In this document: piece after piece, positions 18,034 to 36,458 of the stretch
Numbering within the stretch: position 1 is the stretch's first letter
Layout: every line of letters starts with the position of its first letter
From: Actinomycetota bacterium
Lineage (GTDB): Bacteria; Actinomycetota; CALGFH01
Length of the DNA: 37,193 bases
Assembly (NCBI GenBank): GCA_036280995.1
Contig: DASUPQ010000117.1
Location: forward strand, 1 to 37,193
Reading direction: 5' to 3'
Program-made: the position numbers and the translations under genes
Notes under the pieces: model-generated
The model's database searches: none
The model's input: the letters and a program-made list of their open reading frames with translations, nothing else
Told to the model about the DNA's origin: nothing

Positions 18034-20130
18034 GTGCAGACCTTCACCGACCTGCGGGGCCAGGCCCGGCCGCCCACCGACCTCCCCCTCTTCGACGCCC
18101 CGGCGACGGTGCGCACCTTCGACAGCCCCGAGTTCCGCGACCTCACCTTCTACGAGGTCGAAGCCAAGTCCATCCTCAACCGGGTCCCCGCGGCCAGCGG
18201 CATGCCGTTCGAGTGGACCATCAATGTGTATCGCGGCTGTTCTCACGCATGTAGTTACTGCGTATTTGGTGACACCCCTATTCTAATGGCTGATGGGAGA
18301 ACGAGACCGCTGGCAGAAATCCAAGCTGGAGACGCGATATATGGTACTATTCGCGAAGGCTGGTTCCGCCGCTATGTCATCACGCACGTCCTCGACCACT
18401 GGTCCACCATCAAACCTGCGTATCAGATCACGCTAGAAGACGGAACACAGCTGATCACCAGCGGTGATCACCGATTGCTTACAGACCGCGGATGGAAATA
18501 TGTAACCGGCCTGAAACCAGGTCCCGGACAACGACACTATCTGACAACCAAGAGCAAACTGATGGGAACCGGTGGTTTCGCTTCGCCGCCTAAGGGCGGG
18601 CCAGAGTATCGGCGGGGCTACCTCTGTGGCATGATTCATGGCGACGGACACGTCAGCTCTCGCATGTACAAGCCACCGAATGAGGACCTCAGGCGGGTCG
18701 ATGTGTTCCGGCTCGGTCTGACGGATGTCGAGGCATTGCAAAGAACCCGCACGTATCTAGCCGAGTTCGGGATATCCACACACGAGTATGTTTTTCAGCG
18801 GTCGTCAACCAACCGGAAGCAACTGAACGGACTGGCAAGTAATGGGCCATCGAACATAGCTGCGATCAGGGAGACCATCACCGTTCCTTGTGTTCCCTCA
18901 ATGGAATGGCGGAAAGGCTTTTTAGCTGGCATCTTCGACGCCGAAGGGTCCTATAGCGGCGCGGCCGTGCGGATCTCAAACACCGACCATGCCATTCTTG
19001 ACCTCATCACCTCGAGCTTAGGCCACCTTGGCTTCCTATTCACTCGAAGGACAGTCGAGCGTGACGCATCGAGAAGGCCTATTACGAATGTTCGATTGCT
19101 AGGTGGAGTGCGGGAGCACCTGCGCTTCTTCCACACCGTCGACCCGGCGATCACTCGCAAGCGGACGATCGAGGGCGCTGCAGTCAAGCACAGCGCTCCT
19201 CTCCGGGTGGCCTCCATTGAGCCCCTGAGAATGGATCTCCCCCTATACGACATGACGACAGGTACCGGCGATTACATCTCCAATGGCACAATCTCCCACA
19301 ACTGCTTCGCCCGACCCAGCCACACCTACCTGGGCTTCGACGCCGGGCGGGACTTCGAGCGCAAGATCGTGGTCAAGGTGAACGCGCCGGAGGTCCTGCG
19401 GCGGGAGCTGCGGAGGAAGAGCTGGCGCGGGGCCCATGTGGCGATGGGGACCAACACCGATCCCTACCAGCGGTGTGAGGGGCGGTACCGGCTGACCCGG
19501 GGGGTGCTGGAGGCGCTGCGGGACTACGCCAACCCGTGCTCGGTGCTGACCAAGTCGCCGCTGCTGCTGCGGGACCTGGACCTGTTCGTGGAGCTGGCCG
19601 AGACGGCCGGGTTCTCGGCCAACCTGTCCATCGGCACCCTGGACGAGGAGGTCTGGCGGCGCAGCGAGCCGGGGACGCCGCATCCCAAGGCGCGCATGGC
19701 CGCGGTCAAGCGGCTGGTCGCGGCCGGGATCCCCTGCGGGATCCTGATGGCGCCGATCCTGCCCGGGATCTCGGACTCGCCCGAGCAGCTGAAGGCGGTC
19801 GTCCGGGCGGCCGCCGACGCCGGGGCCAGCCACCTCACCCCGATCACCCTGCACCTTCGCCCGGGCGTGAAGGAGGAGGTCATGCCCTGGCTCGAGGAGG
19901 CCTACCCGGAGCTGGTGGCCGGCTACCGCCGCCTGTACCGCGGCTCCAACGCCCCCAAGGCGGTTTGCGAGGAGATCGGCAACCGGGTCCGGGCCGAGAA
20001 GCGCCGCCACCGGGCCTTCTCCTCCCCCACCACCTCGACCACCGCCCGCCGCCTCCCCGACCCCACCCCGACCGGCCACCCACCGCCCGACCCCGAGCCG
20101 GCGACCCAGCTCTCCCTGACCCTCGGCTGA
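18034..20130 (+). CDS. Rv2578c family radical SAM protein interrupted by an intein
   Basis: Host protein of 350 residues (1-75 and 424-698) after removal of a 348-residue intein. The radical SAM cluster motif is CSHACSYC: C69 and C73 lie before the intein, and the third cysteine, C424, is the first residue after it. After splicing the chain reads CSHACSYC-FARPSH. Downstream the host continues through GTNTDPYQRCE and TKSPLLLRDLDL to a proline-rich tail. The family, named after M. tuberculosis Rv2578c, is distantly like spore photoproduct lyase; its reaction is not known to me. The GTG at 18034 has no Shine-Dalgarno, a -10 6 nt upstream and a LexA-type box, which suggests DNA-damage induction. 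The unspliced protein cannot form the cluster normally. Confidence 0.92.
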   Translation: MQTFTDLRGQARPPTDLPLFDAPATVRTFDSPEFRDLTFYEVEAKSILNRVPAASGMPFEWTINVYRGCSHACSYCVFGDTPILMADGRTRPLAEIQAGDAIYGTIREGWFRRYVITHVLDHWSTIKPAYQITLEDGTQLITSGDHRLLTDRGWKYVTGLKPGPGQRHYLTTKSKLMGTGGFASPPKGGPEYRRGYLCGMIHGDGHVSSRMYKPPNEDLRRVDVFRLGLTDVEALQRTRTYLAEFGISTHEYVFQRSSTNRKQLNGLASNGPSNIAAIRETITVPCVPSMEWRKGFLAGIFDAEGSYSGAAVRISNTDHAILDLITSSLGHLGFLFTRRTVERDASRRPITNVRLLGGVREHLRFFHTVDPAITRKRTIEGAAVKHSAPLRVASIEPLRMDLPLYDMTTGTGDYISNGTISHNCFARPSHTYLGFDAGRDFERKIVVKVNAPEVLRRELRRKSWRGAHVAMGTNTDPYQRCEGRYRLTRGVLEALRDYANPCSVLTKSPLLLRDLDLFVELAETAGFSANLSIGTLDEEVWRRSEPGTPHPKARMAAVKRLVAAGIPCGILMAPILPGISDSPEQLKAVVRAAADAGASHLTPITLHLRPGVKEEVMPWLEEAYPELVAGYRRLYRGSNAPKAVCEEIGNRVRAEKRRHRAFSSPTTSTTARRLPDPTPTGHPPPDPEPATQLSLTLG
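18259..19302 (+). mobile_element. Intein with LAGLIDADG homing endonuclease (residues 76-423)
   Basis: In-frame insertion of 348 codons in the radical SAM gene. Splicing block A begins with Cys (CVFGDTPILMADG), block B is ITSGDHRLLT (H146), and block F/G is LPLYDMTTGTGDYISNG followed by ISHN and the +1 Cys, so all splicing residues are present. Two dodecapeptide motifs mark a LAGLIDADG endonuclease: YLCGMIHGDGH (about 196-206) and FLAGIFDAEGS (297-306), each with its acidic residue. Base composition falls to about 55% G+C here, and codons rare in the rest of the window (ATA, TTA, AGA) appear, so it arrived recently compared with its host. NCBI protein names already recognise intein-bearing members of this family, in my recollection. 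Confidence 0.95.
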
Positions 20131-20346
20131 GCCTCTGGGCCAGGCGGGCCCGGCTCGGGCGGGCGGCGGCGGGCGAGGCGGAATTGCGTTGCGAGGGTCG
20201 CTCAGGCGTTGGAGGATGGTGGGCTGTTGCTCCGCATCCCGCTGCCGCATCCACGAGTCCCGCTTCCGCGTCCCCAACCCACGCCGCAACCTGCCCCGAC
20301 CCACCGCTGTGCCCTCCCCGACCAGTCGCCTGGTGGTGACCCTCGC

Positions 20347-22413
20347 GTGAGTCGAACGCTGGAGCCGTTGCCCGACGACGAGCTGGTCGCCGAGCGGGAG
20401 ATGCTGGAGTACGCCCGCCGGTGCCTGGCGGCGATGCGGCGGCGGACGCGGTCGTTGCCGGCCGCCGGGGCCGACGCGTACGCGGCCGAGTCGGTGGAGT
20501 GGCGGCTGCGGCAGCGGGTGGCCGCGCTGACCGACGACGGGCGGACCGGGCTGTTCTTCGGGCGGCTGGACTACGACGCCGGCGCCGACCCGCCGGAGGC
20601 GCGGTTCTACGTGGGGCGCCGGCACGTCAGCGACGCCGAGGGCGACCCGGTGGTGATCGACTGGCGGGCCGGGCTCGCCCATCCCTTCTACCGGGCCAGC
20701 CCGGCCCACCGCTTCGGGGTCCGGCTCCGGCGCAGGTTCGGGTACCGGGGCGGGACCCTGACCTCGATCCAGGACGAGGTCCTCGACCTGCTGGACGAGG
20801 CCGAGGCCAGGGCCGCGGCCGACCGGGTCCTGGTGGCCGAGATCGAGCGGCCTCGCATCGGGCCGATGCGCGACATCGTCGCCACCATCCAGCCCGAGCA
20901 GGACGACCTGATCCGGGCGCCGCTGGCCGAGACGATCTGCATCCAGGGCGGGCCCGGCACCGGCAAGACCGCGGTCGGCCTGCACCGGGCCGCGTTCCTG
21001 CTCTACGAGCACCGGGAGCGGCTGGCCCGGGACGGGGTGCTGGTGGTCGGGCCGGGGCCCGCCTACCTGGCCTTCATCCGCGACGTGCTGCCGGGCCTTG
21101 GCGAGGTCGACGTCGCCCAGCGCTCGGTCGAGGACCTGGTCGCCGAGGTCACGGTGACCGGGACCGACAGCCCGGAGGTGGCGGCGGTCAAGGCCGACCC
21201 GCGGATGGCGGCGGTCATCCGGCGGGCCGCGTTCCTCCAGGTGCGGCCGCCGGCGCTGCCTCTCGAGGTCCGCTGGGGGCATCGGGTGGTCCGCCTCCCG
21301 GCCAGGATGCTGCGCCAGCGGGTGGACGAGCTGGTCGCCGGGGACCTTCGCTACCAGGTCGGCCGCGACCACCTGCGGGACTGGCTGGTCGAGCGCTGCC
21401 TGCGCCACCTGGAGCACACCGAGGGCGTGAGCGCGCTCGACGACCCGGCCGCGGTCCAGCGCAGCCTCGGCGCCCGCCCCGAGGTCCGGGCCTTCCTGAA
21501 GCGGACCTGGCCGGTGGTCGAGCCCGTCCGGCTGGTGTTCCGGCTGCTCACCGAGCGGCCGTTCCTGGCCGAGGCGGCCGGCGGCATGCTCAGCGACCAG
21601 GAGCAGGAGATGCTCCTGTGGGCGAGACGGCCGCGGAGCCTCAAGGCCGCGGCCTGGTCGGTGACCGACGCGTTCCTGGTCGACGAGGCCGTCGACGTGG
21701 TCGGCGGGACGCGCACCTTCGGCCACGTGGTGGCCGACGAGGCCCAGGACCTGTCGGCGATGCAGCTGCGGGCCATCGGGCGGCGGTGCCGGTTCGGGTC
21801 GGCGACGCTGCTCGGCGACCTGGCCCAGCGGACGACGCCGTGGTCGGCCGAGCGCTGGGGGGACGCCGTCGGCCATCTCGGCCAGCGCTCGGTGCGGGTC
21901 GAGCACCTGCCACGGGCGTTCCGGGCGCCCAAGGAGGTGCTCGACTTCGCCAACCGCCTGCTGCCCGAGATCGCCTCCGAGCTCCGCCCGGCCCGGTCGG
22001 TCCGGAGCGTCCCCGGGTCGCTGCGGGTCCGGGCGGTGGCGCCCGCGGCCGTGCCGGGGGCGTGGCTGCGGGCGCTGGAGGAGGCCCTGGCCGAGGACGG
22101 GTCGGTCGGCCTGGTCGTGGCCGACCCGGCCGTGCCGGCCGCCGAAGCCGAGCTGGCGGGCCGCGGCGTCGAGTTCCGGGAGGTGGACCGGTTCGACACC
22201 GACACCCGGCTGGCGGTCGTTCCCGCTTCGGCGGTCAAGGGGCTGGAGTTCGACCAGGTCGTGCTCGTGGAGCCGGCCGACATCGCCGACCCCGCGCTCG
22301 GGGCGGCCGGTCTGCGGCGGCTCTACACCGCTCTGACCCGGGCCGTCCTCGGGCTGACCGTCGTCCACGCCAAGCCGCTCCCGGCGGCGCTCGGTGCGGC
22401 CCCGCCCGCGTAG
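20347..22413 (+). CDS. HelD/HelR-like RNA polymerase-associated ATPase (UvrD-like SF1)
   Basis: A 688-residue cytosolic ATPase. The N-terminal 180 residues hold a charged helical arm (ELVAEREMLEYARRCLAAMRRR) and the YVGRRHVSDAEGDPVVIDWRAGLAHPFYR block typical of HelD-type proteins. Walker A is GGPGTGKT (201-208), Walker B is ADEAQDLSAMQL, and late motifs are KGLEFDQVVLVEP and RRLYTALTRA. Such proteins remove RNA polymerase from DNA; the actinobacterial HelR branch protects against rifamycins. The substrate role is inferred from family. I start at the GTG at 20347, since the 46 open codons before it are proline-rich and unlike the family. There is no rifamycin-associated palindrome upstream. 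It lies 216 nt after the radical SAM gene. Confidence 0.85.
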   Translation: MSRTLEPLPDDELVAEREMLEYARRCLAAMRRRTRSLPAAGADAYAAESVEWRLRQRVAALTDDGRTGLFFGRLDYDAGADPPEARFYVGRRHVSDAEGDPVVIDWRAGLAHPFYRASPAHRFGVRLRRRFGYRGGTLTSIQDEVLDLLDEAEARAAADRVLVAEIERPRIGPMRDIVATIQPEQDDLIRAPLAETICIQGGPGTGKTAVGLHRAAFLLYEHRERLARDGVLVVGPGPAYLAFIRDVLPGLGEVDVAQRSVEDLVAEVTVTGTDSPEVAAVKADPRMAAVIRRAAFLQVRPPALPLEVRWGHRVVRLPARMLRQRVDELVAGDLRYQVGRDHLRDWLVERCLRHLEHTEGVSALDDPAAVQRSLGARPEVRAFLKRTWPVVEPVRLVFRLLTERPFLAEAAGGMLSDQEQEMLLWARRPRSLKAAAWSVTDAFLVDEAVDVVGGTRTFGHVVADEAQDLSAMQLRAIGRRCRFGSATLLGDLAQRTTPWSAERWGDAVGHLGQRSVRVEHLPRAFRAPKEVLDFANRLLPEIASELRPARSVRSVPGSLRVRAVAPAAVPGAWLRALEEALAEDGSVGLVVADPAVPAAEAELAGRGVEFREVDRFDTDTRLAVVPASAVKGLEFDQVVLVEPADIADPALGAAGLRRLYTALTRAVLGLTVVHAKPLPAALGAAPPA

Positions 22414-31643: not shown

Positions 31644-31949
31644 TCAGCAGGCCTCGGCCTGGGCGACCGGCAGGTCGGCCGGGAGCGGGGGCAGCGGGTG
31701 CTTCCGGGGACGTCCCCGGGAACGCTTGTACGGCACGGGTCGTCCGTCGACGAACACCTCCCCACCCCAGACGCCCCAGGGCTCGCCGCGCTCCTTGGCG
31801 CCCTCGAGGCACCGGGTCCGCAGCGGGCAGGGCCGGCAGAGCTGCTTGGCCAGCTCGAGCTCACGGGGTGACTCGGAGAAGTAGAGGTCGGGTCCCGCCT
31901 GGACGCATGGCAGCGCTCGCCCGGGCGGGAACAGCTCCAGGGTCTGCAT
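31644..31949 (-). CDS. whiB7: WhiB7-type iron-sulfur transcriptional regulator
   Basis: A 101-residue WhiB-family protein that binds a [4Fe-4S] cluster through C15, C38, C41 and C47 and contacts the primary sigma factor. The turn GVWGG is at 59-63 (EPWGVWGGE). Its AT-hook RGRPRKH (78-84) is the mark of WhiB7 rather than other WhiB proteins; AT-hooks bind A/T-rich DNA beside the -35 element. WhiB7 drives intrinsic antibiotic resistance when translation is disturbed. An AAGGAG is about 10 nt before the ATG. The long leader holds a 62-codon upstream ORF and a terminator-like hairpin, an arrangement that would allow antibiotic-sensing attenuation. The target genes are not identified here. Confidence 0.93.
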   Translation of the reverse strand: MQTLELFPPGRALPCVQAGPDLYFSESPRELELAKQLCRPCPLRTRCLEGAKERGEPWGVWGGEVFVDGRPVPYKRSRGRPRKHPLPPLPADLPVAQAEAC

Positions 31950-32012
31950 GGTCAGGTCGCTCCTTGGTCGTCATCGTTGACGGGCGGCGGTCGGTGTCGG
32001 ATGCGGGCAATG

Positions 32013-32042
32013 CAAAAGGCCGTGGGGTTCGCCCACGGCCTT
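32013..32042 (-). terminator. Intrinsic terminator-like hairpin in the whiB7 leader (attenuator)
   Basis: On the minus strand AAGGCCGTGGG (32042-32032) pairs perfectly with CCCACGGCCTT (32026-32016) across a CGAAC loop, an 11-bp stem followed by TT and GCA, a short U-run. It lies 45 nt after the upstream ORF's stop and 64 nt before whiB7. Known whiB7/wblC leaders use a terminator of this kind, relieved when ribosomes stall. The antiterminator arm was not determined. Confidence 0.75.
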
Positions 32043-32086
32043 CGCGGTTTCGGAGGGACCTGGAGGTCTGCTCCTGGGAGGATCCG

Positions 32087-32275
32087 TCAGGTAGGTACCT
32101 CCCGTCCCACCGCGAAGGCCTGGCCGCCGCCCTGGCCGCCGAAGGCGGCCGTGACAGCCGAGGCGTTCCGGCCGAGGTGCTGCAGCTCGGTGCCGATCGT
32201 GGCCGGCTCCGGGCACACGTCACCCTTGGGCCCCTTGAGGGCCGCCCACGGGGTGATGCGCTTCCGGTCGATCAC
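32087..32275 (-). CDS. Upstream ORF in the whiB7 leader
   Basis: A 62-residue frame with a GTG start at 32275 and a strong AGGAGG 9 nt upstream, inside the whiB7 leader. It ends 45 nt before the attenuator hairpin. The peptide is unremarkable: a basic start (IDRKRITPWAALKG), one Cys, and a Gly/Gln-rich end (FGGQGGGQAF). Translation of the frame, rather than the product, is probably what matters: slow or stalled ribosomes would change folding of the RNA downstream. It is longer than the short leader ORFs described for mycobacterial whiB7, as far as I recall. A stand-alone small protein is the alternative. Confidence 0.6.
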   Translation of the reverse strand: MIDRKRITPWAALKGPKGDVCPEPATIGTELQHLGRNASAVTAAFGGQGGGQAFAVGREVPT

Positions 32276-32354
32276 AATGGGACACCTCCTCGGCCGACAC
32301 TGGTCCCTGGAGACCCGGCCAGCACTCGACGGATGCTCCGTCTCGTGCCCGCCC

Positions 32355-32393
32355 ACCCTGGCAGACCCAAAATGACGGGTCAACCCATTTTCT
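32355..32393 (-). promoter_or_regulatory. Putative whiB7 promoter with AT-rich WhiB7 site
   Basis: On the minus strand TTGACC (32383-32378) and CAGGGT (32360-32355) are 17 bp apart. AGAAAATGGG (32393-32384) stands directly upstream of the -35, matching the A/T-rich patch that WhiB7's AT-hook is known to bind in autoregulation. The predicted transcript has a leader of about 400 nt before whiB7. Confidence 0.7.
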
Positions 32394-32451
32394 GGAAGTT
32401 TCTCAGAGCACCCGGATGCGGTGCCGACGGGACCAGACCCCCGGGATCAGA

Positions 32452-33624
32452 TCAGTAGACCGGGACGCTGGGGTCCACGGTCTTGGCCCAGGCGGTGATG
32501 CCGCCGCCCAGGTGCCGGGCCGTGGAGAACCCGGACTGCTTGAGCAGGGCCAGGGCCTCGGCCGAGCGGACCCCGCTCTTGCAGTAGAGGACCACCGGCT
32601 CGGTCTGGGGCAGCTCGGCCAGGTGGTCGGGCAGGGTGTCGAGCGGGATCAGGGTCGCCCCGGGGAGGCGGTTGATCTGCCACTCGGCCGGCTCGCGGAC
32701 GTCCACCAGCTTGAGCTGCTGGCCGTCGTCGAGCAGCGCCTTGAGCTGGGCCGGGGTCAGGGTGGCGCCGGCGGCGGCCTGCTGGGCCTCGTCGGAGACG
32801 ACGCCGCAGAACTCCTCGTAGTCGATCAGCTCGGTGACCGTCGGGTGCTTGCCGCAGACGGCGCACTCGGGGTCCTTGCGGACGGCGATGTCCTTGAAGG
32901 ACAGCTCCAGGGCGTCGTAGATGAGCAGCCGCCCCACCAGCGGGTCGCCGATGCCGGTGAGCAGCTTGACGGCCTCGTTGGCCTGGACCGAGCCGACGGT
33001 GGCGCAGAGCACGCCCAGCACGCCGCCCTCGGCGCAGGAGGGGACCATGCCCGGCGGGGGCGGCTCCGGGTACAGGCAGCGGTAGCAGGGGCCGTGCTCG
33101 GCCCAGAACACGCTCGCCTGGCCGTCGAAGCGGTAGATCGAGCCCCACACGTACGGCTTGCCCTCGAGCACGCAGGCGTCGTTGACCAGGTAGCGGGTGG
33201 GGAAGTTGTCGGAGCCGTCGATCACCAGGTCGTAGTCGCGGATCAGCTCGCGGGCGTTCTCCGACGAGAGCCGGGTCTCGTGCAGGGTGACCTGCACGTA
33301 CGGGTTGATCTCGGTGATCTTGTCGCGGGCGCTCTCCAGCTTGGGCCGGCCGATGTCGGAGGTCCCGTGGATGACCTGGCGCTGCAGGTTGGAGGCGTCG
33401 ACGACGTCGAAGTCGACCAGGCCGAGGTGCCCGACCCCGGCCGCGGCCAGGTACATGGCGTTGGGGGCGCCGAGGCCGCCGGCGCCGATGAGCAGGACGC
33501 GGGCGTTCTTGAGCCGCTTCTGCCCGTCCATGGCCACGTCGGGGATGATCAGGTGGCGGGAGTAGCGGGCGATCTCGTCCCGCGACAGCTCGGCCGCCGG
33601 TTCAACCAGTGCAGGAAGCGCCAT
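32452..33624 (-). CDS. moeZ: Adenylyltransferase/sulfurtransferase MoeZ (ThiF/MoeB-like plus rhodanese)
   Basis: A 390-residue two-domain enzyme. The N-terminal E1-like domain adenylates the C-terminal Gly-Gly of a ubiquitin-like sulfur carrier: LLIGAGGLGAPNAMYLAAAGVG binds ATP, and CYRCLYPEPPPPG with CAVCGKHP holds the structural zinc. The C-terminal rhodanese domain has the catalytic cysteine in VVLYCKSGVRSAE. It then transfers sulfur, from an IscS/SufS-type persulfide, to the carrier for molybdopterin, cysteine or thiouridine pathways. The ATG at 33624 is chosen at the family N-terminus; the frame is open 35 codons further. Last gene of the suf operon, 38 nt after the sufT-like gene, so sulfur comes from the SufS encoded upstream. 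Confidence 0.9.
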   Translation of the reverse strand: MALPALVEPAAELSRDEIARYSRHLIIPDVAMDGQKRLKNARVLLIGAGGLGAPNAMYLAAAGVGHLGLVDFDVVDASNLQRQVIHGTSDIGRPKLESARDKITEINPYVQVTLHETRLSSENARELIRDYDLVIDGSDNFPTRYLVNDACVLEGKPYVWGSIYRFDGQASVFWAEHGPCYRCLYPEPPPPGMVPSCAEGGVLGVLCATVGSVQANEAVKLLTGIGDPLVGRLLIYDALELSFKDIAVRKDPECAVCGKHPTVTELIDYEEFCGVVSDEAQQAAAGATLTPAQLKALLDDGQQLKLVDVREPAEWQINRLPGATLIPLDTLPDHLAELPQTEPVVLYCKSGVRSAEALALLKQSGFSTARHLGGGITAWAKTVDPSVPVY

Positions 33625-33662
33625 CTTCTGTCCAGATCCTCGTGTTTCGCGTCTCGTTCGCG

Positions 33663-33980
33663 TCAGATCGCGAAGCCCATGGCCCGCAGGGCCATCTTGC
33701 CGTCCTCGGTGAGCCGCTCCGGCCCCCACGGCGGCGACCAGACCCAGTTGATCTCGACCTCCTGGATGTCGTCCAGGCCGATCAGGGCGGCGTTGGTCGC
33801 ACCCTCGATCATGTCGGTGAGCGGGCAGGCCACCGTGGTCAGGGTCATGTCGAGCCGCACCTTGCGGCCCTCCTCCTCCTGGTCCACGCCGTACACCAGG
33901 CCCAGGTCGACCACGTTGACGCCCAGCTCGGGGTCCTCGACCTGCTTCATCGCCTCGAGGATGTCGCTATCGGTGGCCAT
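33663..33980 (-). CDS. sufT: MIP18/DUF59 family Fe-S assembly factor (SufT-like)
   Basis: A 105-residue protein of the MIP18/PaaD/SufT family that helps deliver clusters to target proteins. The conserved block VEDPELGVNVVDLGLVYGV (14-32) and the single reactive cysteine in TTVACPLTD (C52) are present, with the closing INWVWSPPWGPERLTEDGK region. The ATG at 33980 directly abuts the sufU stop at 33981-33983, so the genes are coupled. The suf operon context supports the assignment. Gene symbol by similarity; the exact client proteins are unknown. Confidence 0.9.
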   Translation of the reverse strand: MATDSDILEAMKQVEDPELGVNVVDLGLVYGVDQEEEGRKVRLDMTLTTVACPLTDMIEGATNAALIGLDDIQEVEINWVWSPPWGPERLTEDGKMALRAMGFAI

Positions 33981-34427
33981 CTACGCTCTTCCTTCCTCGT
34001 CCGTCCCTGCCCGGGCGGCGGCGTCCTTGAACGCCATCCAGCCGAGCAGCGCGCACTTGACCCGCACGGGGTAGCGCGCCACTCCCTTGAACGCGATCCC
34101 GTCCCCCAGCAATTCCTCGTCCGGCTCGCCCTCGCCGTGCATCAGCCGCCGGAACGCCTCGGCCTGGGCGAGGGCCTCGCCCAGGGGCCGGCCGGTCACC
34201 TGCTCGGTCATGACCGAGGCGGCCGCCTGGGAGATCGAGCAGCCCTTGCCGTCGACGGCCACGGCCGCGACCCGGTCGCCGTCCAGCCGCAGCCCGACCG
34301 TCAGCTCGTCCCCGCACACCGGGTTGTAGTGGTGCACCTCCACCTGGGCGTCCTCGAGCCGCCCCGGGTGCCGGGGCTTCTTGTAGTGGTCGAGGATGAT
34401 CTCCTGGTAGAGGTCGTCGAGGGGCAT
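33981..34427 (-). CDS. sufU: SufU-type sulfur-acceptor / Fe-S scaffold protein
   Basis: A 148-residue zinc-dependent sulfurtransferase that takes sulfur from SufS. Ligand residues are all visible: NPVCGDEL (C38, D40), GKGCSISQAA (C63) and VRVKCALLGW (C125). The insert between C63 and C125 that marks SufU rather than IscU is present (residues about 75-115). AAGGA stands about 9 nt before the ATG at 34427; a longer open frame upstream lies antisense within sufS and is not used. 17 nt separate it from sufS, and it touches the sufT-like gene. No loss of a key residue. Confidence 0.94.
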   Translation of the reverse strand: MPLDDLYQEIILDHYKKPRHPGRLEDAQVEVHHYNPVCGDELTVGLRLDGDRVAAVAVDGKGCSISQAAASVMTEQVTGRPLGEALAQAEAFRRLMHGEGEPDEELLGDGIAFKGVARYPVRVKCALLGWMAFKDAAARAGTDEEGRA

Positions 34428-34444
34428 CTCGTTGTCCTTGCCTG

Positions 34445-35683
34445 CTAGGCGAAGAAGCGCCTGACCTTGTCGAGGCCGGCGACCAGCGCGTCGACCTCCT
34501 CGGTGGTCGAGTAGAGGTAGAACGACGCCCGGGTGGTGGCCTGGACCCCGAGGCGCCGCAGCAGCGGCTTGGCGCAGTGGTGGCCGGCCCGGACCGCGAT
34601 CCCGTCGGAGTCGAGCACCTGGGCGACGTCGTGGGGGTGGAGGTCGCCGAGGGTGAACGAGACCATGCCGCCGCGGTGCTCGACCTCGGACGGCCCGTAG
34701 ATCCGGAGCCCGTCGATCTCGCCCAGGCGCTTGAGGGCGTAGCCGGTGACGTCGACCTCGTGGGCCCGGACCCGGTCCATGCCGAGCCCCTGGAGGTAGT
34801 CGACGGCCGCCCCCAGCCCGACCGCCTCGGCCACGTTGGGTGTCCCGGCCTCGAACCGCCACGGGATGTCGTTCCAGGTGGCCCGGTCGATGTCGACGTC
34901 GCGGATCATCTCGCCCCCGCCGAGGAACGGCTCCATGCTCTCCAGCAGCTCTTCCCGGGCCGCCAGCACCCCGACCCCCATGGGGCCGAGGGCCTTGTGC
35001 CCGGTGAACCCGAGGAAGTCGACCCCGAGGGTGTCGAGGCGGACCCCGGCGTGGGGCACGGCCTGGGCGGCGTCGGCCAGGACGAGCGCCCCGGCGGCGT
35101 GGGCCCGCTCGGCGATCTCGGCCACCGGGTTGACGGTGCCGAGCACGTTCGACATGGCCGACACGGCGACGATGCGGGTCCGCTCGCCGAGCAGGCCGTC
35201 AAGGGCCTCCAGGTCGAGCAGGTAGTCACCGGTGACGGGCACGGCCCGGACCTTGGCCCCGGTCATGCCGGCCACCAGCTGCCAGGGCACCAGGTTGGAG
35301 TGGTGCTCCATCTCGGTGACCAGGATCTCGTCGCCCTGGCGGAGGTTCCGCAGGCCCCAGGCGTAGGCGACCAGGTTGATGGCCTCGCTGACGTTCTTGG
35401 TGAACACCGTGGCCCGCTCGGAGGCGCCGACGAAGCGCGCCACCTTGCCCCGGGCCTCCTCGAACAGGTGGGTGGCCTCCTCGGCCAGGGTGTGGACGCC
35501 CCGGTGCACGTTGGCGTTGTGGCGCCGGTAGTAGGTGTCCATGGCCTCCAGCACCTGCGCCGGCTTCTGGCTGGTGGCGGCCGAGTCCAGATAGACGAGG
35601 GCGTGGCCGTTGACCCGGCGCTCCAGGATCGGGAAGTCGCCGCGGACGGCGGCCACGTCCAGCGGCGCGCTCACGGTCGTCAT
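34445..35683 (-). CDS. sufS: Cysteine desulfurase SufS
   Basis: PLP enzyme that removes sulfur from L-cysteine as a persulfide and hands it to SufU. Of its 412 residues the PLP lysine is K230 (FTGHKALGPMG) and the active cysteine C370 (IAVRAGHHCAKPLL). YLDSAATSQKP and EHHSNLVPWQ mark the group II desulfurase/selenocysteine lyase family. AGGAGG stands 5 nt before the ATG at 35683. The frame is open 14 codons further but without a ribosome site. 22 nt from sufC and 17 nt from sufU, in the suf operon. No defect visible. Confidence 0.96.
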   Translation of the reverse strand: MTTVSAPLDVAAVRGDFPILERRVNGHALVYLDSAATSQKPAQVLEAMDTYYRRHNANVHRGVHTLAEEATHLFEEARGKVARFVGASERATVFTKNVSEAINLVAYAWGLRNLRQGDEILVTEMEHHSNLVPWQLVAGMTGAKVRAVPVTGDYLLDLEALDGLLGERTRIVAVSAMSNVLGTVNPVAEIAERAHAAGALVLADAAQAVPHAGVRLDTLGVDFLGFTGHKALGPMGVGVLAAREELLESMEPFLGGGEMIRDVDIDRATWNDIPWRFEAGTPNVAEAVGLGAAVDYLQGLGMDRVRAHEVDVTGYALKRLGEIDGLRIYGPSEVEHRGGMVSFTLGDLHPHDVAQVLDSDGIAVRAGHHCAKPLLRRLGVQATTRASFYLYSTTEEVDALVAGLDKVRRFFA

Positions 35684-35705
35684 CGGGACCTCCTGGAGGC
35701 GGGTC

Positions 35706-36458
35706 TCAGGTGGCGGGGCTGCCACGCCAGCGCTCGTACCCCTCGGCCTCGAGCTGGTCGGCCAGCTCGGGACCGCCGGACTCCACGACCCGGCCGTCGA
35801 CCATCACGTGGACCATGTCGGGGGAGATGTAGCGCAGGATGCGGGTGTAGTGGGTGATCAGCAGGACACCGAGCTGGGGGCCGCGGAGGCGGTTGACGCC
35901 GTCGGCCACGACCCGCAGGGCGTCCACGTCCAGGCCCGAGTCGGTCTCGTCGAGGATGGCCAGCTCGGGGCGGAGCAGGGCCATCTGGAGGATCTCGTGG
36001 CGCTTCTTCTCGCCGCCCGAGAAGCCCTCGTTGAGGCTGCGCTCGGCGAACCGCGGGTCCATGTCGAGCAGGCGCATCTGCTCGCGCAGGTCCTTGGCGA
36101 ACTCGCGCACCGGGACGTCCTCGCCGCGGACCGAGTTCATGGCCGTGCGCAGGAAGTTGGTCACCGACACCCCCGGCACCTCGACCGGGTACTGCATGGC
36201 CAGGAACATCCCCAGCCGGGCCCGCTCGTCAGGGGTGAGGTCGAGCACGTCCTCGCCCTTGAACGTCACCTTGCCGCCGGTCACCCGGTAGCGGGGGTGG
36301 CCGGCCAGGGCGTAGGCCAGGGTCGACTTGCCGGAGCCGTTGGGGCCCATCAGGGCGTGGACCTTCCCCGACTCCACGGTCAGGTCGACGCCGCGCAGGA
36401 TCTGCTTGTCCTCCACGTCGACGTGGAGGTCCTCGATCACCAGGGTCGTGTCAGGCAT
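35706..36458 (-). CDS. sufC: Fe-S assembly ATPase SufC
   Basis: ABC-type ATPase of the SufBCD scaffold. In 250 residues: Walker A GPNGSGKS (38-45), a Q-loop in FLAMQYPVEVPGVS, the ABC signature FSGGEKKRHEILQ, Walker B LAILDETDSGLD, and the H-loop in LLITHYTRIL. It hydrolyses ATP to open the SufB-SufD dimer during cluster building. There is no membrane domain; it works in the cytoplasm. It lies 18 nt after the Rieske gene and 22 nt before sufS. sufB is not in the window and probably lies upstream of sufD, beyond the right edge. Confidence 0.97.
   Translation of the reverse strand: MPDTTLVIEDLHVDVEDKQILRGVDLTVESGKVHALMGPNGSGKSTLAYALAGHPRYRVTGGKVTFKGEDVLDLTPDERARLGMFLAMQYPVEVPGVSVTNFLRTAMNSVRGEDVPVREFAKDLREQMRLLDMDPRFAERSLNEGFSGGEKKRHEILQMALLRPELAILDETDSGLDVDALRVVADGVNRLRGPQLGVLLITHYTRILRYISPDMVHVMVDGRVVESGGPELADQLEAEGYERWRGSPAT

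Follow-up and report, generated by a model that had tools for sequence, protein, structure and literature searches.

The whiB7 gene of this actinobacterium is preceded by a leader that probably acts as a transcription attenuator of the whiB7/wblC kind, controlled by an upstream ORF (uORF) that most likely serves as a translation gauge and not as a specific stalling peptide. On the evidence of sequence comparison and folding models, we put the probability of this reading at about 87%. The leader lies on the minus strand of a 37,193-nt stretch of DNA (the window), and its elements are collected in Table 1. Judged by its sequence, it is a clear and conserved whiB7 attenuator of known kind in a sparsely sampled, uncultured class. 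Our comparison within this class covers three species only, all with whiB7, and in all three the leader keeps the promoter, the start, Shine-Dalgarno (SD) sequence, frame and stop of the uORF, an antiterminator arm and, without a single difference over 27 nt, the terminator. The leader and gene elements named in the original prediction were all found on the minus strand where it had placed them, and its proposal of ribosome-controlled transcription attenuation resembling that of whiB7/wblC is well supported; the antiterminator arm, which its description did not contain, strengthens it.

Table 1. Elements of the whiB7 leader and gene in the window
Feature	Position	Strand	Description
WhiB7-type promoter	32355-32392	minus	Fits published WblC motif; GAAAAT box 32392-32387; GGG; -35 TTGACC 32383-32378; 17 nt; -10 CAGGGT 32360-32355
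Small hairpin	32328-32342	minus	GACGGA-GCA-TCCGTC, just 3' of the expected start site; dG -8.2 kcal/mol, z -2.1
uORF Shine-Dalgarno	32283-32290	minus	AGGAGGTG, 8 nt, 7 nt 5' of GTG; found in 3/3 species
uORF	32087-32275	minus	GTG 32275 to TGA 32087, 62 codons, VIDRKRITPWAALKGPKGDVCPEPATIGTELQHLGRNASAVTAAFGGQGGGQAFAVGREVPT
Antiterminator arm	32110-32120	minus	GGCCTTCGCGG, inside the uORF near its 3' end, codons around ..QAFAV..
Terminator foot and outer 5' half of stem	32037-32047	minus	CCGCGAAGGCC, pairs with the antiterminator arm
Intrinsic-terminator hairpin (predicted)	32016-32042	minus	AAGGCCGTGGG-CGAAC-CCCACGGCCTT; short T tract after it, to 32014
whiB7 ribosome binding site	31960-31965	minus	AAGGAG
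whiB7	31644-31949	minus	101 aa, WhiB-family regulator, AT-hook-like RGRPRK tail

The identity of the downstream gene as WhiB7/WblC is indicated by its sequence elements (GEPWGVWGGE...RGRPRK), by best matches that are actinobacterial whiB7 loci, and by a match to the Pfam family Whib (E 1.1e-12), although NCBIfam returned no match for the protein. Orthologues are present in all three genomes of the class, with 97% and 82% identity to the window copy and a dN/dS of 0.08, and the region of the ribosome binding site is identical at 17 of 18 positions in both relatives.

The published WblC motif consists of a GAAAWY box 3 nt upstream of the -35 element and a spacer of 16-19 nt (PMC7157823), an arrangement that the promoter in the window reproduces exactly. 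Transcription would be expected to start near 32347, which gives a predicted leader of ~398 nt and agrees with the ~400 nt leader and WhiB7-site promoter proposed originally; the mycobacterial whiB7 leader is about 350 nt long (PMC4128351). The full box pattern (GAAAAT-GGG-TTGACC-N17-CAGGGT) occurs a single time in the entire 6.07-Mb genome. A strict version of the pattern has one match in G000 and one in G001, each at whiB7, and a relaxed version has one match per genome in all three class genomes, always at whiB7, where about 1.2 matches would be expected from composition across the three genomes together. Beyond whiB7's own site, strict settings yielded no further WhiB7-type promoters in the class genomes, and a relaxed form yielded a few matches, near control level. 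A similar search finds whiB7's own site in other actinobacterial genomes (G024, G038, G040, G050 and G052), and in the Streptomyces-like G024 a stricter setting gives eight promoter matches vs one in the control. Two smaller structures accompany this region. A hairpin like the one just 3' of the expected start site is possible in both relatives, as judged from the alignment by eye. The -35 element itself sits within an imperfect inverted repeat (AAATGGGTTGACCCGTCATTT; 32367-32389, minus strand) that was also flagged by the terminator scan and is not clearly conserved in the relatives.

Between the uORF and whiB7 lies a predicted Rho-independent terminator, whose 11-bp stem, also part of the original prediction, stands 66 nt 5' of the whiB7 ATG (dG -22.7 kcal/mol, z -4.7 vs shuffles); the 37-kb window contains no other perfect stem of at least 11 bp that closes a loop of 3-6 nt. 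All 27 positions of the hairpin are identical among the three species while its flanks drift, and it is single-copy in each of the three genomes even when 3 mismatches are allowed. Its U-tract is short and weak (CCUUUUGCAUU), and because of this shortness a mechanical terminator scan of the window did not call it. Rfam gave no family in the window at gathering score and nothing credible at a relaxed threshold. Could the hairpin be a mere constitutive terminator, insulating whiB7 from moeZ, with the whiB7 promoter downstream of it? A moeZ-like gene does lie upstream on the same strand, and no part of the leader is better conserved than the terminator, but the sole WhiB7-type promoter match is found upstream of the uORF and not after the hairpin, the antiterminator arm and the strong-SD uORF are conserved along with the hairpin, and the sequence directly upstream of the leader, with its gene context, aligns in neither G001 nor G002. 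We therefore hold this explanation to be very unlikely.

The element that ties the uORF to the terminator is the antiterminator arm. GGCCTTCGCGG is an exact 11-nt reverse complement of CCGCGAAGGCC, and the arm is conserved in all three species. Codon shuffling gives P values for this complementarity of 0.0006 in the window, 0.0056 in G001 and 0.002 in G002, and synonymous-codon resampling reproduces its length in about 10-16% of trials, because the residues AFA nearly fix the codons of the arm. We also folded the RNA with all nucleotides masked up to a moving ribosome and scored terminator vs antiterminator. In this model the base of the terminator forms with a probability of ~0.9 when the ribosome sits on the arm. 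With the ribosome halted further upstream, the antiterminator mostly prevails in the window and in G001, although its probability fluctuates strongly from one uORF position to the next. For G002, the most distant relative, the model gives weak antiterminator pairing (often 0.1-0.6), and with no ribosome on the RNA the terminator prevails. An antiterminator built from overlapping uORF and terminator sequence is predicted in these three species, with a weaker fold in G002. The arm ends ~20 nt before the uORF stop codon, too far upstream to be covered by a ribosome halted at that codon; termination in the off state must rely on ribosomes still in motion over the final codons.

What does the uORF read? 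An SD-led uORF of 62 codons, as originally proposed, is present in the leader and predicted to be translated; its start, SD, frame and stop are conserved in all three species (the relatives have 65 and 67 codons), with a stop-to-terminator spacing of 43-45 nt. Its peptide behaves differently from the protein encoded downstream. Comparison of the window with its congener (public record CALGFH010000419.1) gives 27 nonsynonymous and 6 synonymous changes in the uORF (dN 0.23, dS 0.13) vs 3 and 13 in whiB7, a difference with P = 3e-5. The uORF ratio is ~1.8 for the closest pair and exceeds 1 in every pair, a comparison of three genomes only, and it is not significantly greater than 1 (P = 0.28); in other genera the ratios lie mostly around 0.3-0.9. 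Within these three genomes, the substitution pattern shows no purifying selection on the uORF peptide, while its frame is kept.

These observations bear on a rival reading by way of Erm-type or trp/his-type attenuation, in which ribosomes would stall at defined codons of the uORF, its product being either a specific arrest peptide or a leader peptide sensitive to amino-acid starvation. A GDV-P--AT-GA block and a C-terminal REAP/REVPT are indeed partly conserved in the three species, but the ratio of nonsynonymous to synonymous changes speaks against selection for a particular peptide, and the conserved AFA is accounted for by the RNA arm. Neither does the composition point to a starved codon: the window uORF has no codon run for one amino acid, and alanine makes up 15% of it and 10% of the uORF at L120, vs 34-41% in mycobacterial and several rhodococcal uORFs. 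Looked for through uORF composition, amino-acid-specific sensing was not found, and the arrest or leader peptide as a whole seems to us improbable. It is scarcely credible that the uORF product is a functional small protein whose position is incidental: the strong SD and the open frame are kept in three species, but the protein sequence shows no purifying selection, the peptide matches no Pfam family, and unrelated peptides occupy the same leader position in other actinobacteria. Since the peptide shows no purifying selection and is not alanine-rich, a general translation gauge is a better account of the uORF than an alanine sensor or a peptide that stalls ribosomes specifically; as only the frame, the initiation signal, the stop position and the RNA arms are conserved, the uORF is most likely such a gauge. 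The original suggestion that the uORF might sense many antibiotics fits this function, whereas its other suggestion, of amino-acid-specific sensing, finds no support in the codon content.

How would such a gauge control whiB7? RNA polymerase would start ~400 nt upstream of the gene, at a promoter that, from its motif, WhiB7 is expected to activate. As long as translation of the uORF keeps its normal speed, the GGCCTTCGCGG arm would be hidden under ribosomes during transcription of the terminator region; the GC-rich hairpin would form, and transcription would end before whiB7. If ribosome-targeting drugs or general translation stress delay or stop ribosomes before they reach the arm, the arm would be left free to pair with CCGCGAAGGCC and melt the outer half of the terminator beside the U-tract, allowing the polymerase to read into whiB7. 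The WhiB7 protein made in this way would then boost its own promoter.

The same attenuation mechanism has been published for mycobacteria and Streptomyces (PMC10727445, PMC11550727, PMC13393426, PMC4128351), where full translation of the uORF leads to termination and stalling releases an antiterminator formed from overlapping uORF and terminator sequence (PMC10727445, PMC11550727, PMC13393426). The leader described here has in common with these whiB7/wblC attenuators the WhiB7 gene, the GAAAWY-type autoregulatory promoter, the long leader, the SD-led uORF, the antiterminator arm in the 3' part of the uORF and the terminator before whiB7. It differs in several details. The terminator has a class-specific sequence, GGCCGTGGGCGAACCCCACGGCC, where the GGCCGCGGACC type is the common one, the pairing register is another one in that the arm pairs with the terminator foot, and the spacing between uORF stop and terminator is 43-45 nt, in contrast to 12-32 nt in most other whiB7/wblC leaders. 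The uORF is neither alanine-rich nor similar in sequence to known whiB7/wblC uORFs. Attenuators of ABC-F genes (tiaA, are5sc, lmrC, vmlR, vgaA; PMC12421871) likewise combine a uORF, a premature terminator and an antiterminator released by stalling; however, their uORFs are very short (e.g. MVGDDDISG), and they control a resistance protein directly and not a WhiB regulator (PMC12421871).

A survey across Actinobacteria places the leader in a wider setting. It comprises the 54 whiB7 loci at which both an SD-led uORF and, downstream of it, a strong hairpin were detected; the list is automatic and includes a few wrong picks (e.g. L053) and some near-duplicates (L009 is the L119 locus). In these loci the uORF spans 34-113 codons, so that the 62 codons found here, which had been called unusually long, fall near the middle of the range. 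In 20 of 29 representative loci, vs 7.4 expected, the arm with the best complementarity is located 13-40 nt ahead of the uORF stop. The P value of 8e-7 is nominal, since these loci are not fully independent and the interval was set with the distances already known; the arm in the window fits this geometry. Related leaders are also found in other distant families (L123, L124). One genome carries two tandem whiB7-like genes (L128; G031:C1:680033-681189), for which the survey found no clear attenuator hairpin. For uORF-mediated transcription attenuation of whiB7/wblC in Streptomyces and Mycobacterium, PMC10727445 and PMC11550727 cite Lee et al. 2022 and Burian and Thompson 2018.

The surroundings of the locus include further genes of note. 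Directly upstream of whiB7 (32452-36458, minus strand), a moeZ-like gene is accompanied by SUF-type Fe-S assembly genes, with SufC-, SufS- and SufU-like genes recognised by inspection and a PaaD/SUF-associated gene by profile match; the adjoining whiB7 presumably encodes an Fe-S protein. Farther away, an intein bearing a LAGLIDADG-like domain splits an Rv2578c-family radical SAM protein (18034-20130, plus strand; NCBIfam NF038136), and the gene at 20209-22413 (plus strand) resembles the HelD/HelR RNA polymerase recycling motors, with matches to HelR models that stay below their cut-offs. HelR-type motors are linked to rifampicin tolerance.

Finally, one may ask whether the switch of this class is a pure translation gauge, with a neutrally evolving peptide, and feeds a regulator for which whiB7 is the sole site of the recognisable promoter motif. 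We regard this stronger version as doubtful; if it is true, WhiB7 might control a very small, or a differently recognised, gene set.

In conclusion, the sequence evidence suggests that a whole drug-sensing whiB7 leader, beyond the gene alone, is present in a sparsely sampled class of Actinobacteria. This clade offers a clean comparison, with frozen RNA arms on the one hand and a drifting peptide on the other, and the combination supports the view that whiB7 leaders read general translation speed, which would explain their broad drug response.
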